From positions 1-64,000 of the forward strand of contig JAHHGY010000003.1 of the NCBI GenBank assembly GCA_019359635.1: a stretch of DNA of 64,000 bases. The letters run 5' to 3'. A model generated the notes under the pieces. The model was not told where the DNA came from and did no database searches. It saw nothing but the letters and a program-made list of their open reading frames with translations. Source of the stretch: Chroococcus sp. CMT-3BRIN-NPC107 (GTDB lineage: Bacteria; Cyanobacteriota; Cyanobacteriia; Cyanobacteriales; Chroococcidiopsidaceae). This document shows, piece after piece, positions 8,804 to 43,643 of this stretch (within the stretch, counting starts at the first letter, position 1; each line of letters begins with the position of its first letter). The position numbers and the translations under genes are program-made.

Positions 8804-10747
8804 ATGCTTAAGCAGGGTTTCGACATCTATCAATCAAAAAAATCTAATGCCAGTAATTTACCTTTACGGGCAATACTAACAGCAACTTTACTTGTGGGCA
8901 GTGGAGCAATCTTACTTAAGACTAATGCGATCGCATCTCCCATTGCTCAAATTGTAGTCCCCACTGTACCGAACTCTACACCGTCGCCGACACCAACGCC
9001 GACAATTACGCCAACTCCAGTAGTTGTTCCTACAGCTACACCAACACCAATCCCTACACCAGTAGTTGTTCCTACGCCTACACCAAGCCCTACACCCACA
9101 CCAACACCGACAATTACGCCAACTCCAGTAGTTGTTCCTACGCCTACACCAAGCCCTACACCCACACCAACACCGACAATTACGCCAACTCCAGTAGTTG
9201 TTCCTACGCCTACACCTACACCAACTCCTACAGTCGTACCATCGCCTAACACCAACCAAGTCCCCACAAGTGGTTCGGTTATTTATGTAGATCCGGTAAA
9301 TGGTGCAGAGAACGGAACGGGTAACGCCCAAGCGCCTTACAAAACGATTTCCTCGGCTCTCAACTTGGCACAATCAGGAACAGTAGTTCAACTAGCGCCA
9401 GGAATTTATAGTGCAACTACAGGTGAAGTTTTCCCCCTGACTATCAAATCTGGCGTAACTTTGAGGGGCGATGAGTCTACCAAAGGTCAAACTAGAGTAA
9501 TTCTTGGTAGCGGTAATTACGTTAGCCAAACTTTTGCTCGTCAAAACGTGACAATTCGTGCTGAATCTGGTAGTACAGTTTTAGGAGTTACCATTGCTAA
9601 TCCTAGCAGTCGGGGTACGGGTTTATGGATTGAATCAACTAATCCTACTGTTAGAAATAACACTTTTACTATTAACAACCGCGATGGCATTTTTCTGAGT
9701 GGAAATGCTAACCCCACTATTGAAAATAATGTTTTTACCCAAAATAGCGGTAATGGTATTTCTGTAGCTAAAACTGCAAGCGGTCAAATTCGCAATAATC
9801 TATTTTTAGATACTGGTTTTGGTTTAGCTATTGGCGGTAGTTCTACGCCTACAGTCACCGGAAATCAACTTTACCAAAATCGAGCCGGGCTATTTATTTC
9901 TGATTCCGCTCGTCCTACATTACGTGGTAATTTCATTGAAAATAGCAAACAAGATGGTGTGGTAATTACCGCCAGCGCTCAACCGGATTTAGGTACAGCC
10001 GAAAATCCGGGGAATAATCTTATTCGCAATAATACTCGGTACGATGTCTACAATTCAACGCGCAGTAATACAGTTACGGCGGCGGGTAATGATATCGAGC
10101 TAGAAAAAATTTCTGGTGATGTAACTTTTGTTGCTGCTACAGTCAATCGTCCGGCAATTAGGCAAGGTACGTTCCGCGATATTCAGGGTTATTGGGCGCA
10201 ACCTTATATTGAAGCTTTAATTGCTAAAAATGTAATTGCTGGTTTTCCTGATGGCTCCTTTAAGCCTACAGACCCCGTGACTCGCGCTCAATTTGCAACT
10301 ATTTTGAGTAAAGCTTTTGCGCCCCCATCGCAGCGAGAAGCCCAAGAATTTAAAGATGTCAAGCAAGATTTTTGGGCATACGGGGCGATTCAAACAGCTT
10401 ACCGAGGCGGTTTTGTGGCGGGGTATCCGGGTGGATTATTTCAACCCCAGCAGGCAATTCCTAGAGTACAGTCGCTCGTTTCTTTGGCTAATGGTTTGGG
10501 TTTGAAGTCAGATAATCCTAATGTTTTAACAACTTACGCTGATGCTGCTCAAATTCCTAACTATGCAACAGATCCAGTATCAGCAGCAACACTAAGGCAA
10601 TTAGTTGTCAACTATCCTATCCCTGGGCAGTTGAATCCTAACCGCGATGCTACGAGGGCAGAGGTTGCAGCCTTTGTTTATCAAGCTTTGGTAAATACTG
10701 GACGCGCTCAGGCGATCGCATCTCCTTACGTTGTCAGAATTCCTTAA
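8804..10747 (+). CDS. Exported surface protein: Pro/Thr repeats, DUF1565 parallel beta-helix, SLH domains
   Basis: The 647-residue product has an N-terminal membrane/signal segment ([20 protein letters not shown], residues 20-39). A Pro/Thr-rich linker of repeated VVVPTPTP units covers about 50-150. A DUF1565/NosD-like right-handed beta-helix starts with [14 protein letters not shown] and has many short N-x-FTxN type rungs (about 160-440). The C-terminal part has S-layer-homology repeats ([36 protein letters not shown]). SLH domains bind secondary cell-wall polymer or, in cyanobacteria, anchor proteins between peptidoglycan and outer membrane. A cell-envelope, possibly carbohydrate-related role follows; no enzyme activity can be assigned. 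Its end is followed by a good terminator. Confidence 0.88.
9062..9193 (+). repeat. Two exact 66-bp tandem repeats encoding a 22-residue Pro/Thr unit
   Basis: Positions 9062-9127 and 9128-9193 are identical over 66 bases and encode [20 protein letters not shown] plus TP. Diverged partial copies flank them (upstream from about 8974, downstream to about 9249). The perfect identity of the copies, including third positions, points to recent slippage or unequal exchange. Confidence 0.95.
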
Positions 10748-39650: not shown

Positions 39651-40172
39651 ATGGCGCAAGCAATAGATGCATCAAAAGATCGCCCCAGCGATCCTAGAAA
39701 TAGAGAAGTTGTGTTTCCTCCTAACCGCGATCCGCAGTGGGGTGACATGGAGACACCAATCAATAATTCTAGCCTTACTAAATGGTTCATTAATAACTTG
39801 CCAGCTTACCGCCAAGGGATAACAACCCAAAGGAGAGGAATAGAAGCTGGTATGGCTCATGGTTATTGGCTGCTTGGTCCTTTTGCAAAACTAGGCCCGT
39901 TGCGGGATACCGATATTGCTAATTTAGCTGGATTATTATCAACCTTGGGAATGGTCGCAATTTCTGCCTTTGCGATCGCCCTTTATGCTAATAGCAATCC
40001 TGCCCAACCTGTTACAAATGTAACCACTGCCAATAGAGTACCCGATGCCTTCAAGTCTCCCGAAGGCTGGAATACTTATGCTACTAGCTTTCTGATTGGT
40101 GGCGTTGGTGGAGCGGTAGTTGCCTACTTCCTGCTAGACAATATAGAAGTAATCCAACGGTTATTTAGCTAG
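39651..40172 (+). CDS. psaL: Photosystem I reaction centre subunit XI
   Basis: PsaL holds the contact between PSI monomers in trimers and tetramers. The 173-residue product has the conserved N-terminal NREVVFPPNRDPQWGDMETP, the region LPAYRQGITTQRRGIEAGMA, and chlorophyll-binding helices (HGYWLLGPFAKLGPLRDTD; LAGLLSTLGMVAISAFAIAL; SFLIGGVGGAVVAYFLLDNI). No psaI is adjacent, in contrast to Synechocystis where psaL is with psaI. The position next to psaFJ is the arrangement linked to tetrameric PSI in heterocystous cyanobacteria and Chroococcidiopsis. Confidence 0.96.
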   Translation: MAQAIDASKDRPSDPRNREVVFPPNRDPQWGDMETPINNSSLTKWFINNLPAYRQGITTQRRGIEAGMAHGYWLLGPFAKLGPLRDTDIANLAGLLSTLGMVAISAFAIALYANSNPAQPVTNVTTANRVPDAFKSPEGWNTYATSFLIGGVGGAVVAYFLLDNIEVIQRLFS

Positions 40173-40247
40173 TTGGAAAAATTACGCCTAGTTCTAATAG
40201 GCGAGATTAAAGAGTAGATAAGAAAAGTGAAATGTCTTTGCTTTAGC

Positions 40248-40267
40248 GCAAAAACTTTTGCTTTTTT
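40248..40267 (+). terminator. Probable terminator after psaL
   Basis: GCAAAA and TTTTGC form a short stem at 40248-40261, directly followed by six T. A second weak stem CGCCTA/TAGGCG is at 40185-40203. Both lie between psaL and the convergent gmk gene. Confidence 0.55.
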
Positions 40268-40301
40268 GCTCTACTCTTAAGCTTTTTAAAAGGAATTATT
40301 A

Positions 40302-40889
40302 CTAATTGAATAAGGCTGCTTCAAGTAAATGCAAAGCGGTTTCTAAGTCATCGTTAGTAATTTGGATATCAAATTCTTTGGCAGCATCAATTTCGATTTG
40401 CGCGCGTTGAAGACGGCGATGGATAGCTGAAGGAGAGTCTTGAGCGCGATCGCGCAGACGTTTTTCTAAGACACTAAAAGATGGTGGCAAAATAAAAATC
40501 CGTAACGCATCGGGCAATGAAGTACGAATTTGATTCGCACCTTCTAGCTCGATTTCTAATAAAACGATTTTGCCCTCAGCAATTTTTTGTTCGATCGGTA
40601 AACGGGGAGTACCGTAGTAGTTGCCTGCAAATTCCGTCCATTCTAAAAGATGGTTGCTGACAATCATTGCTTCAAAATCGCTGCGACTAACAAAATAGTA
40701 ATGCTTGCCATCAATTTCTCCCGGACGCGGCGAACGAGTTGTAGCAGAAACCGATAAATAAAGTTCGCGGTGACGTTGCAAGAGAATTTGCACCAAAGTA
40801 CCTTTACCAACGCCGCTAGGACCGGTCAAAACAATTACTTTTCCTTGAGAGCGACGATCGTTTGCTGGAGTAGAATTAGAAGTTTGCAT
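40302..40889 (-). CDS. gmk: Guanylate kinase
   Basis: Gmk phosphorylates GMP to GDP with ATP. The 195-residue product has the P-loop VLTGPSGVGKGTLVQIL, the GMP-binding segments VSATTRSPRPGEIDGKHYYF and LLEWTEFAGNYYGTP, and LEIELEGANQIRTSLPDALR. The remA gene is 51 bases upstream on the same strand, a pairing conserved from Firmicutes to cyanobacteria. Confidence 0.96.
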   Translation of the reverse strand: MQTSNSTPANDRRSQGKVIVLTGPSGVGKGTLVQILLQRHRELYLSVSATTRSPRPGEIDGKHYYFVSRSDFEAMIVSNHLLEWTEFAGNYYGTPRLPIEQKIAEGKIVLLEIELEGANQIRTSLPDALRIFILPPSFSVLEKRLRDRAQDSPSAIHRRLQRAQIEIDAAKEFDIQITNDDLETALHLLEAALFN

Positions 40890-40940
40890 TCACTGGCACA
40901 AAACCAACCTATTCAATTTTTATAATTTACATTACCTTAG

Positions 40941-41201
40941 CTAATTATCTGGTTGCTCGCGGCTAAGAACAAATCGATTTGCCACCGTTTCAGGCTGAAT
41001 TGCTGACAAAATTACATGACTTGAATCGGTGATAATTACGGCTCTAGTACGACGACCATAGGTAGCATCAATCAACTGACCGCGATCACGCGCATCTGTA
41101 ATAATACGCTTAATGGGGGCAGATTCAGGACTAACAATGGCAACTACTCGGTTAGCAGAGACGATATTACCAAAACCAATATTTATAAGCTGAATATCCA
41201 T
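40941..41201 (-). CDS. remA: RemA/DUF370 family regulator
   Basis: An 86-residue protein that starts [20 protein letters not shown], followed by [20 protein letters not shown] and [20 protein letters not shown], the whole-length signature of DUF370. In Bacillus subtilis RemA is a ring-forming DNA-binding activator of biofilm matrix and osmoprotection genes. In cyanobacteria the target genes are not established. Adjacent to gmk, as in many genomes. Confidence 0.92.
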
Positions 41202-41409
41202 GAAAAACTGACGCGACGCGCCCTATAACAAGCTGGAAAACCTAACTTCAATGGTATATACAAAAATTTGGACTTACAAGGCTAAAAACAGCTAAAAAAC
41301 TGACTTTTGGGGCTTTTAGTCCTGTTTTTTAAGTTTTTCTACCTTTAGATATCGCTCAAAAGGTAGAACAAGTATTAAATGTTATTCCCTTAGTTAAAGA
41401 AGATTTGCT

Positions 41410-43155
41410 TTGCAACCTGTTGACTTTACAACTTTAATTGCTGCGGTTTGCGAATTGCGATCGCTCTGGCTGCCCGCGCGTACCGAACAAGTACATCAAC
41501 GCAACCGCTTTACAATTGCGATCGCTCTACGTACTTTAGACAAGCGAGGATGGCTAGAAATATGTTGGCATCCCCAAGCAGCGCACATCTGTATGAGTTC
41601 TCCGCCGCCGCGAATTCCCGATACTTTTACGTTTAGCCAACAGTTGATTCATCAGTTGAATGGTTTGGCGCTAGTAGCAATTGAAGAAGTTGCACCTTGG
41701 GAGCGGGTTGTCGATTTGCAATTTGCCCGCCGTCCGGGAGAGAGCGCTTTGTGGCATTTGTATGTAGAAATTATGGGCAAATACAGCAATGTCATTCTCA
41801 CCGACGCAAATAAAGTAATTGTTACGGCAGCACACCAAGTTAGCCAACAGCAGTCAAGCGTCCGCCCGATTCAAACCGGGCAAACTTATGAGTTGCCACC
41901 ATCATTAAGCGGTGCTGTACCAGCAATAAGCGAGGAGACTTGCCGTTGGATTGAACGGGTAAGCTTAGTTCCAGGAGCGGTAGGGCGTTGTTTGCTCAAA
42001 AATTACCGGGGCTTAAGTCCAGCTTTGGTACAGTCGATGGTACGAGTAGCAGAACTAGATCCAGAACAATCGACTGCCAGCCTAGAACCCGCCGATTGGC
42101 AAAGATTGTTTAGCTATTGGCTTGAATGGTTGCAAAACTTAGATAAATTGCAATTTTTTCCTGGCTGGACAGCTAAAGGTTATACGGTCATGGGTTGGGA
42201 AGTAACGGAACCCGTAGCCAATACTCAAGGGTTGCTAAATCATTACTATACTCATGAACTAAATCAGCAAGAATTTACTAACTTGCGTAATCAGTTAATG
42301 CAAAAGCTAAGTAATATTTTAGAAAAGTTACGCCTCAAAGCTCGAACTTTTAGCGATCGGTTGCAGCAGTCTCAAGGGGCGGATGTGTATCGTCAACAAG
42401 CCGACTTGTTGATGGCTAATTTGCAAGCATGGCAACCAGGAAGGAAAGAAATTGTTTTGCGTGATTTCGATACTAGCGAACCTGTAGCAATTAGATTAGA
42501 ACCAGAAAAAAATGCCGTCCAAAACGCTCAGAAGCTGTACAAACAAGCAGGAAAGCTAAAACGCGCTCGTGGGGCAGTAGAGCCATTACTAAACGATGTA
42601 CAGGCAGAAATCGACTACTTGGAGCAAGTAGAAGATGCGATTTATCAAATAGATAAGTACCGATCGACGGATGATTTGGAGGCGCTTTACGAAATCCGCG
42701 AAGAATTAATTGGGCAGAAGATTTTAGAAGATACGCAGTACCTCCGCCCTACCGCTGGCCCTGACTCTACGCCAAATTTTCACAAGTTTCGCGCTCCTAG
42801 TGGGTTTGAAGTCTTAATTGGGCGGAATAATCGCCAAAACGATCGCTTAACTTTTCGACTTGCCAACGATTACGATTTGTGGTTTCACGCTCAAGAGATT
42901 CCTGGCGCTCATGTATTACTACGCTTAGAACCCGGCGCTGTAGCAGAAGACCGCGATTTACAATTTTCCGCAGATTTGGCTGCCTATTATAGCCGATCGC
43001 GTCAAAGCGATCGCGTTCCAGTGGTTTATACTCAACCCAAGCACGTCTACAAACCAAAAGGTGCTAAACCTGGTATTGCTATTTATAAGCAAGAGCGGAT
43101 TTTGTGGGGACAGCCCAGCCAAGGGGAGAGGTATTTAGGGATGAGCAATAGATGA
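41410..43155 (+). CDS. rqcH: RqcH/Rqc2-like NFACT protein (ribosome-associated quality control)
   Basis: A 581-residue protein with TTG start giving MQPVDFTTLIAAVCELRSLW. NFACT-N domain (about 1-200), helical coiled-coil middle region (about 280-430, rich in Gln and Lys), and an NFACT-R domain near the C terminus (GFEVLIGRNNRQNDRLTFRL, then DYDLWFHAQEIPGAHVLLRL). Bacterial RqcH binds obstructed 50S subunits and adds C-terminal alanine tails to stalled nascent chains, marking them for proteases such as Clp. Older names are fibronectin-binding protein or DUF814. Confidence 0.9.
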   Translation: MQPVDFTTLIAAVCELRSLWLPARTEQVHQRNRFTIAIALRTLDKRGWLEICWHPQAAHICMSSPPPRIPDTFTFSQQLIHQLNGLALVAIEEVAPWERVVDLQFARRPGESALWHLYVEIMGKYSNVILTDANKVIVTAAHQVSQQQSSVRPIQTGQTYELPPSLSGAVPAISEETCRWIERVSLVPGAVGRCLLKNYRGLSPALVQSMVRVAELDPEQSTASLEPADWQRLFSYWLEWLQNLDKLQFFPGWTAKGYTVMGWEVTEPVANTQGLLNHYYTHELNQQEFTNLRNQLMQKLSNILEKLRLKARTFSDRLQQSQGADVYRQQADLLMANLQAWQPGRKEIVLRDFDTSEPVAIRLEPEKNAVQNAQKLYKQAGKLKRARGAVEPLLNDVQAEIDYLEQVEDAIYQIDKYRSTDDLEALYEIREELIGQKILEDTQYLRPTAGPDSTPNFHKFRAPSGFEVLIGRNNRQNDRLTFRLANDYDLWFHAQEIPGAHVLLRLEPGAVAEDRDLQFSADLAAYYSRSRQSDRVPVVYTQPKHVYKPKGAKPGIAIYKQERILWGQPSQGERYLGMSNR

Positions 43156-43283
43156 CTAAGATTGAGGATTTTTCCTCTCAATTTGGGGGTAATTTTAGTT
43201 TTTACATCTCTCTCTTGAGATAGTTATGTCAAGATACTATGAACTTTTATAAAAAAGTCTGTGCTTCCTGTTACAATATAGGA

Positions 43284-43353
43284 ACAGATTTATACTAGCT
43301 GAAGCTTTGGGACGCAGTACAGATTTATACTAGCTGAAGCTTCGGGACGCAGT
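43284..43353 (+). repeat. Two tandem 35-bp direct repeats
   Basis: Units 43284-43318 and 43319-43353 are identical except for one base (CTTTGGG versus CTTCGGG). Each contains the small palindrome AGCTGAAGCT and ends in GGGACGCAGT. The duplication lies exactly at the predicted 5' end of the small RNA. Confidence 0.95.
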
Positions 43354-43393
43354 TGGGTTTCCTGGAATCAAACGACAATCTAAAAAAATCTAT

Positions 43394-43424
43394 AGACTAG
43401 CTGTGGTAGGCTGGTCTTTTTTTT
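43394..43424 (+). terminator. Rho-independent terminator of the candidate small RNA
   Basis: AGACTAGC (43394-43401) pairs with GCTGGTCT (43410-43417), with one T-G wobble, and eight T follow (43417-43424). No coding gene ends upstream within 230 bases, which is the main argument for a separate small transcript. Confidence 0.8.
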
Positions 43425-43554
43425 ATCGTTTCAATCTCGTTTAGGGTTAGACATATTGCTTTGCATTTACCTTGCAAGCGATCGCTATTTTAGTATTTGC
43501 AGGGCGAGAATTTTAACAATCTATTTAGGCTTGCACCTCAATTAATAATCTGTT

Positions 43555-43579
43555 AATTTATAACTAATGTTCGATATAA
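43555..43579. promoter_or_regulatory. Operator-like 25-bp motif upstream of tetR (copy 1)
   Basis: The sequence at 43555-43579 (core ATAACTAATGTTCGATATAA) is 23/25 identical to 46240-46264, upstream of the DUF2834 gene in the same cluster. It contains the partial palindrome AAC-N4-GTT, the type of half-site pair bound by TetR dimers, and lies 65 bases before the tetR start, where autorepression would act. Confidence 0.65.
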
Positions 43580-43643
43580 AAAGTCCGGGAGTAACAAGAG
43601 ACAATTTAGCTATTGCCTAAAAGCGCTAATTTTATCGCACCGT

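Follow-up and report, generated by a model that had tools for sequence, protein, structure and literature searches.

The intergenic locus at positions 43284-43424 of the window, the 64,000-nucleotide stretch of DNA analysed here, is in all likelihood the nsrR1 gene of a Chroococcidiopsis-like cyanobacterium. It would encode an NtcA-controlled small RNA (sRNA) that pairs with its targets through a middle segment and whose 5′ domain has been duplicated into two copies predicted to pair with each other. The sRNA is of a known kind, and what is new is an internal tandem duplication in one species.

Layout and conservation of the locus

The predicted RNA lies in a 488-bp spacer (43156-43643) bounded by an NFACT-family (Rqc2/FbpA-like) gene and a TetR-family gene. 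The NFACT gene (41410-43155, forward strand; Pfam NFACT_N, E 1e-118) is a conserved upstream neighbor that lies outside the sRNA, and a search of the spacer for ORFs of at least 40 aa found none. All features of the sRNA gene described below are likewise on the forward strand. A -10 box, TACAAT, was read off the window sequence at 43272-43277 and is kept in every aligned orthologue. It is overlapped by an NtcA-type site, GTGCTTCCTGTTAC (GTR-N8-TAC, 43261-43274), preceded by a T at 43260 and assigned from the sequence together with the promoters of the family. A TTGACA-like -35 box is absent from this promoter, to which a sigma-70 scan gave no score. Transcription is predicted to start at 43284, the seventh base after TACAAT, a numbering that fits published NsrR1, and homology, covariance models, and the terminator together predict an RNA of 141 nt (43284-43424). 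The intrinsic terminator (43394-43424) consists of a 9-bp stem with a 6-nt loop at 43394-43417 and eight T at 43417-43424, and its stem covaries across 48 sequences.

An earlier note, made by reading the sequence, had described a TACAAT box, two 35-nt units with one mismatch, and an eight-T terminator in a 488-bp spacer without any protein gene, and the coordinates confirm each of these elements. The units occupy 43284-43318 and 43319-43353, and the first base of unit 1 is the predicted transcript start; the note had placed the beginning of the duplication within a base or so of that start. The tandem arrangement is real (TRF score 133), with a best tandem identity in the spacer of 0.97, compared with a maximum of 0.80 over 300 dinucleotide shuffles. 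The word “exact” used in the note was slightly too strong, as the units agree at 34 of 35 positions, the sole mismatch being CTTTGG in unit 1 versus CTTCGG in unit 2. Each unit comprises a 5′ leader and the sequence of a hairpin, H1, with CUG at 43299-43301 and CAG at 43315-43317 in unit 1, and CUG at 43334-43336 and CAG at 43350-43352 in unit 2, which carries one derived base. Elsewhere in the window, tandem repeats with a 66-nt period (8990-9253; 2.4 exact copies, part of a larger array) lie inside a 647-aa ORF and encode a Pro/Thr-rich sequence.

A DNA search found the sRNA in all 18 same-family relatives examined, directly downstream of the NFACT-family gene in 17 of them, and the same adjacency was seen at many loci of other families. 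Using a covariance model built from the same-family relatives, we detected a single copy in each of 115 genomes out of a class-wide draw of 388, a lower bound because the filters of the large search are strict; weak matches in Synechocystis-like genomes appeared only under laxer search settings. A second model recovered the gene, again as a single copy, from 211 of the 217 genomes of one Nostocaceae-like family. A plasmid search gave no match.

The predicted secondary structure also covaries. Across 48 sequences, 8 of the 12 base pairs of H1 and the terminator showed changes on both sides, and two-sided changes were observed in 35 cells, compared with a mean of 8.3 after shuffling, a procedure that leaves relatedness in play. 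Slid pairings, a control that retains relatedness, abolished the covariation signal. In H1 (CUGY/RCAG), the changes were CG/UA/AU and GC/AU exchanges, and the sequence of its loop, (U)GGGAACGCG, shows strong conservation. A different consensus helix proposed by RNAalifold, GGGA/UUUC, was paired in 82% of the cells with zero two-sided changes and was dropped; we took CUGY/RCAG as the helix because its competitor was unsupported by such changes. With its class-wide conservation and the covarying hairpin of its predicted RNA, the locus is a genuine sRNA gene equipped with a promoter and a terminator of its own, as the earlier note had proposed, and its transcript is a predicted one.

Comparison with NsrR1 and other cyanobacterial small RNAs

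NsrR1 was described in Nostoc PCC 7120 as an RNA of about 110 nt (gene at 2050703-2050814, 112 nt) with functional nucleotides U51, C63, and C66, and its promoter carries a GTRN8TAC NtcA site partly over the -10 box with a T just upstream (PMC6166021, PMC7281752). Binding of NtcA to this site was shown by EMSA (PMC6166021). The nblA footprint, accompanied by mutations, covers nt 58-67 (PMC6166021) and the all1871 footprint nt 45-62 (PMC7281752), such that footprints and compensatory mutations put target pairing at nt 45-67 (PMC6166021, PMC7281752). The published range of the gene comprises heterocystous strains and two related unicellular ones (PMC6166021, PMC7281752).

The window and its family resemble Nostoc in having an NtcA site over the -10 box with an upstream T: positions 43260-43274 read TGTGCTTCCTGTTAC, that is, the T followed by GTRN8TAC over the box. 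Among 91 distinct family promoters, GTRN8TAC stands in the same place in 88 and GTN10AC in 90; the TAC part was fixed by the search pattern, and the informative part is therefore the GTR at the right distance. Further likenesses are the intergenic position of the gene in a long spacer and a length of about 110 nt including the terminator, the single-unit RNAs of congeners being predicted at about 109-121 nt. In the Nostocaceae homologue G651 (L227:824-935, reverse strand), a near relative, counting from the seventh base after TACAAT gives U51, C63, C66, and a length of 112 nt, and the GACAA pairing segment is conserved. In other Nostocaceae members, indels displace these positions by one nucleotide. 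The window copy differs from Nostoc NsrR1 in its 141 nt, with 35 nt of the 5′ domain duplicated in tandem, which shifts the numbering, and in the equivalent of nt 66: C63 has its equivalent at 43376, whereas that of C66 is a T at 43379. The identification as NsrR1 is strong but indirect, with four published constraints coinciding in one near relative, G651. On the basis of synteny, we take alr1709 to be the NFACT gene.

The published range of NsrR1 fits Nostocaceae plus the family of the window, and the NsrR1-like range found here goes far beyond the published heterocystous strains and their unicellular relatives. NsrR1-like genes with an NtcA-type promoter occur in Crocosphaera, Microcystis, Prochloron, Microcoleus, and Synechocystis-like genomes, and loci beyond the range given in PMC6166021 are L061, L065, L081-L085, L088-L090, L093, L097, L112, and L160. 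None of the known S. elongatus sRNA coordinates could be tied to the family. About 100-230 nt after the NFACT gene of S. elongatus PCC 6301 (L171), GTTACACT and a terminator mark what may be a diverged sRNA, which scores below model significance.

The author of the earlier note could not assign the RNA to a known family by eye. Indeed, Rfam at gathering and relaxed thresholds gave no credible match to the window RNA, but the RNA does fit NsrR1. Yfr1 and Yfr2 resemble it as widely conserved cyanobacterial sRNAs; neither the Yfr1 motif, CACUCCUCACACC, nor that of Yfr2 occurs in the window RNA. Nostoc NsiR1 offers another parallel, its locus being one in which direct repeats are arrayed in tandem. 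Each NsiR1 repeat has its own promoter and gives rise to a separate short RNA, whereas the TACAAT promoter of the window lies outside the repeats and one predicted RNA holds both units.

The duplicated 5′ domain and alternative explanations

Among six members of the genus, two units were found only in the window species. Counting units in relatives, as suggested in the earlier note, gave a single unit in all five congeners examined and likewise in a further 77 sequences of the family, and the single unit of the congeners indicates that the duplication is recent. The covariance model aligns unit 2 to the ancestral module. The H1 loop of both window units is 3 nt shorter than in the congeners, and relatives carry the T of unit 1 at the mismatch position, making the base of unit 2 the derived one. 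The order of events would therefore be a change in the loop, then the duplication, and then the substitution in unit 2. In the alignment, the nblA footprint maps to 43371-43380, which holds CGACAA, and the all1871 footprint to about 43361-43375, with approximate edges because the alignment is gapped there. Both footprints lie 3′ of the repeats, and the duplicated module is thus the 5′ leader with its hairpin, not the known target-pairing segment.

Thermodynamic ensemble prediction for the two-unit RNA gives about 15 expected pairs between the units and has neither copy forming H1. This inter-copy pairing dominates the predicted ensemble, with 12 bp formed through the near-palindrome CUGAAGCUUYGG common to both copies, and H1-type stems are predicted for a one-unit version and for the congener G004. 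CGACAA is predicted to be less often unpaired in the two-unit RNA, with a mean probability of 0.63, compared with 0.84 when only unit 1 is present and 0.85 for G004. The two copies are thus predicted to pair mutually in place of the ancestral H1, leaving one target-pairing segment.

The earlier note had taken the repeated unit for a target-binding module, which would provide two sites for one target or allow two mRNAs to be bound at once. The duplication does start exactly at the predicted +1 and spans the whole 5′ domain, and the strong conservation of the (U)GGGAACGCG loop would allow for an unmapped partner. However, the published pairing region, with both footprints, maps 3′ of the two copies, and mutual pairing is predicted for the copies, making this reading improbable. 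Since the known target contacts are made outside the duplicated part, the window RNA is a curious variant and not a new system. The duplication most likely has no role, or modestly changes stability or accessibility, and does not add target binding. We regard it as unlikely that the duplicated 5′ domain is functional; if it were, the long inter-copy stem might alter RNA lifetime or exposure of the pairing segment, or the second copy might offer a second site to whatever partner the conserved GGGAACGCG loop has. The duplication could also be an assembly artefact, as it occurs in one assembly only, that of a draft genome 88% complete in 100 contigs; yet the copies differ by one base and share a loop 3 nt shorter than in congeners, as expected of a true duplication, and we give an artefact only a slim chance.

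As for the locus itself, its position directly downstream of the NFACT gene, on the same strand, in most genomes could mean that it amounts to no more than the 3′ UTR and terminator of that gene, or, as the earlier note had also considered, the remnant of a lost gene. This is very improbable: in the aligned orthologues the promoter block is as well conserved as the RNA, the hairpin covaries, and both promoter and RNA persist between rps1- and dnaG-like genes in Synechocystis, with differing flanks in L006 too. As the pair is maintained without an NFACT neighbor, the sRNA is not an NFACT 3′ UTR. We see next to no prospect that the locus is PsrR1/SyR1, the high-light sRNA repressing psaL, which it resembles as a free-standing cyanobacterial sRNA of similar length with a terminator and a wide distribution, and with psaL 3 kb upstream in the window. 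PsrR1 has a published 22-nt pairing with psaL (PMC10989914). Three Synechocystis genomes in which PsaL starts with MAESNQVVQAYNGDPF carry a sequence complementary to the start region of psaL, with 2 mismatches, in an sRNA between the beta-ketoacyl synthase (fabF-like) and hoxH-like genes, the published place of PsrR1, and the published SyR1 primers match this locus. The RNA of the window family in the same genomes lacks the 22-nt stretch that would pair with the ribosome-binding site and start codon of psaL. PsrR1 thus differs in locus, sequence, regulator (RpaB), and psaL-pairing segment, and the separate loci in the same genomes ruled this identity out. The gene order at 39651-43424 of the window is psaL, gmk, remA-like, NFACT, and nsrR1, and in most of the family relatives examined the distance between psaL and the sRNA is no more than a few kb.

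Proposed regulation and meaning of the duplication

For the locus read as nsrR1, homology to NsrR1 and the experiments in Nostoc suggest that the RNA would be made when combined nitrogen is plentiful, and that under nitrogen stress NtcA would occupy the site over the -10 box and repress the gene. The unpaired middle segment (GGUUUCC..CGACAA, about 43357-43379) may pair with the 5′ UTRs of nblA and all1871-like mRNAs, and pairing near the ribosome-binding site would lower their translation. The alignment shows that the pairing segment of Nostoc NsrR1 is kept in part in the window RNA. Nucleotide 66, on which nblA pairing depends in Nostoc, has a T as its equivalent throughout the window genus, and this T could still form a G-U pair. 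Testing one species, Calothrix rhizosoleniae, we found that 250 of 500 shuffled leaders paired with its own NsrR1 as well as the nblA leader did, so that the pairing did not exceed chance. In Calothrix rhizosoleniae SC01, nsrR1 is followed at a distance of about 1.7 kb by an nblA-like gene (L161:5247 onward).

A second repeat was observed in another family of the order, at L021. There, the spacer downstream of NFACT carries the same promoter with GTATTTGCTGTTAC, followed by GATTTCCTC, and then five exact copies of the 15-nt GACTTAAACGACAGA (L021:1602-1676) and a terminator. Here it is the CGACA-bearing pairing segment that is multiplied, the very design imagined in the earlier note. Model R2 scores this locus at only 14.8 bits, and its homology therefore rests on synteny, promoter, and motif.

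The growth of an sRNA by internal tandem duplication is little documented. The window species provides a clean case with single-copy congeners, and the effect of the extra module is therefore directly measurable. Because NsrR1-like genes and the NtcA-type site extend to much of the class, NtcA-NsrR1 regulation is testable in Synechocystis-like laboratory strains. If the duplicated 5′ domain is functional, then, together with the five-fold repeat of L021, this would present an sRNA that is tunable by tandem copying of its modules.
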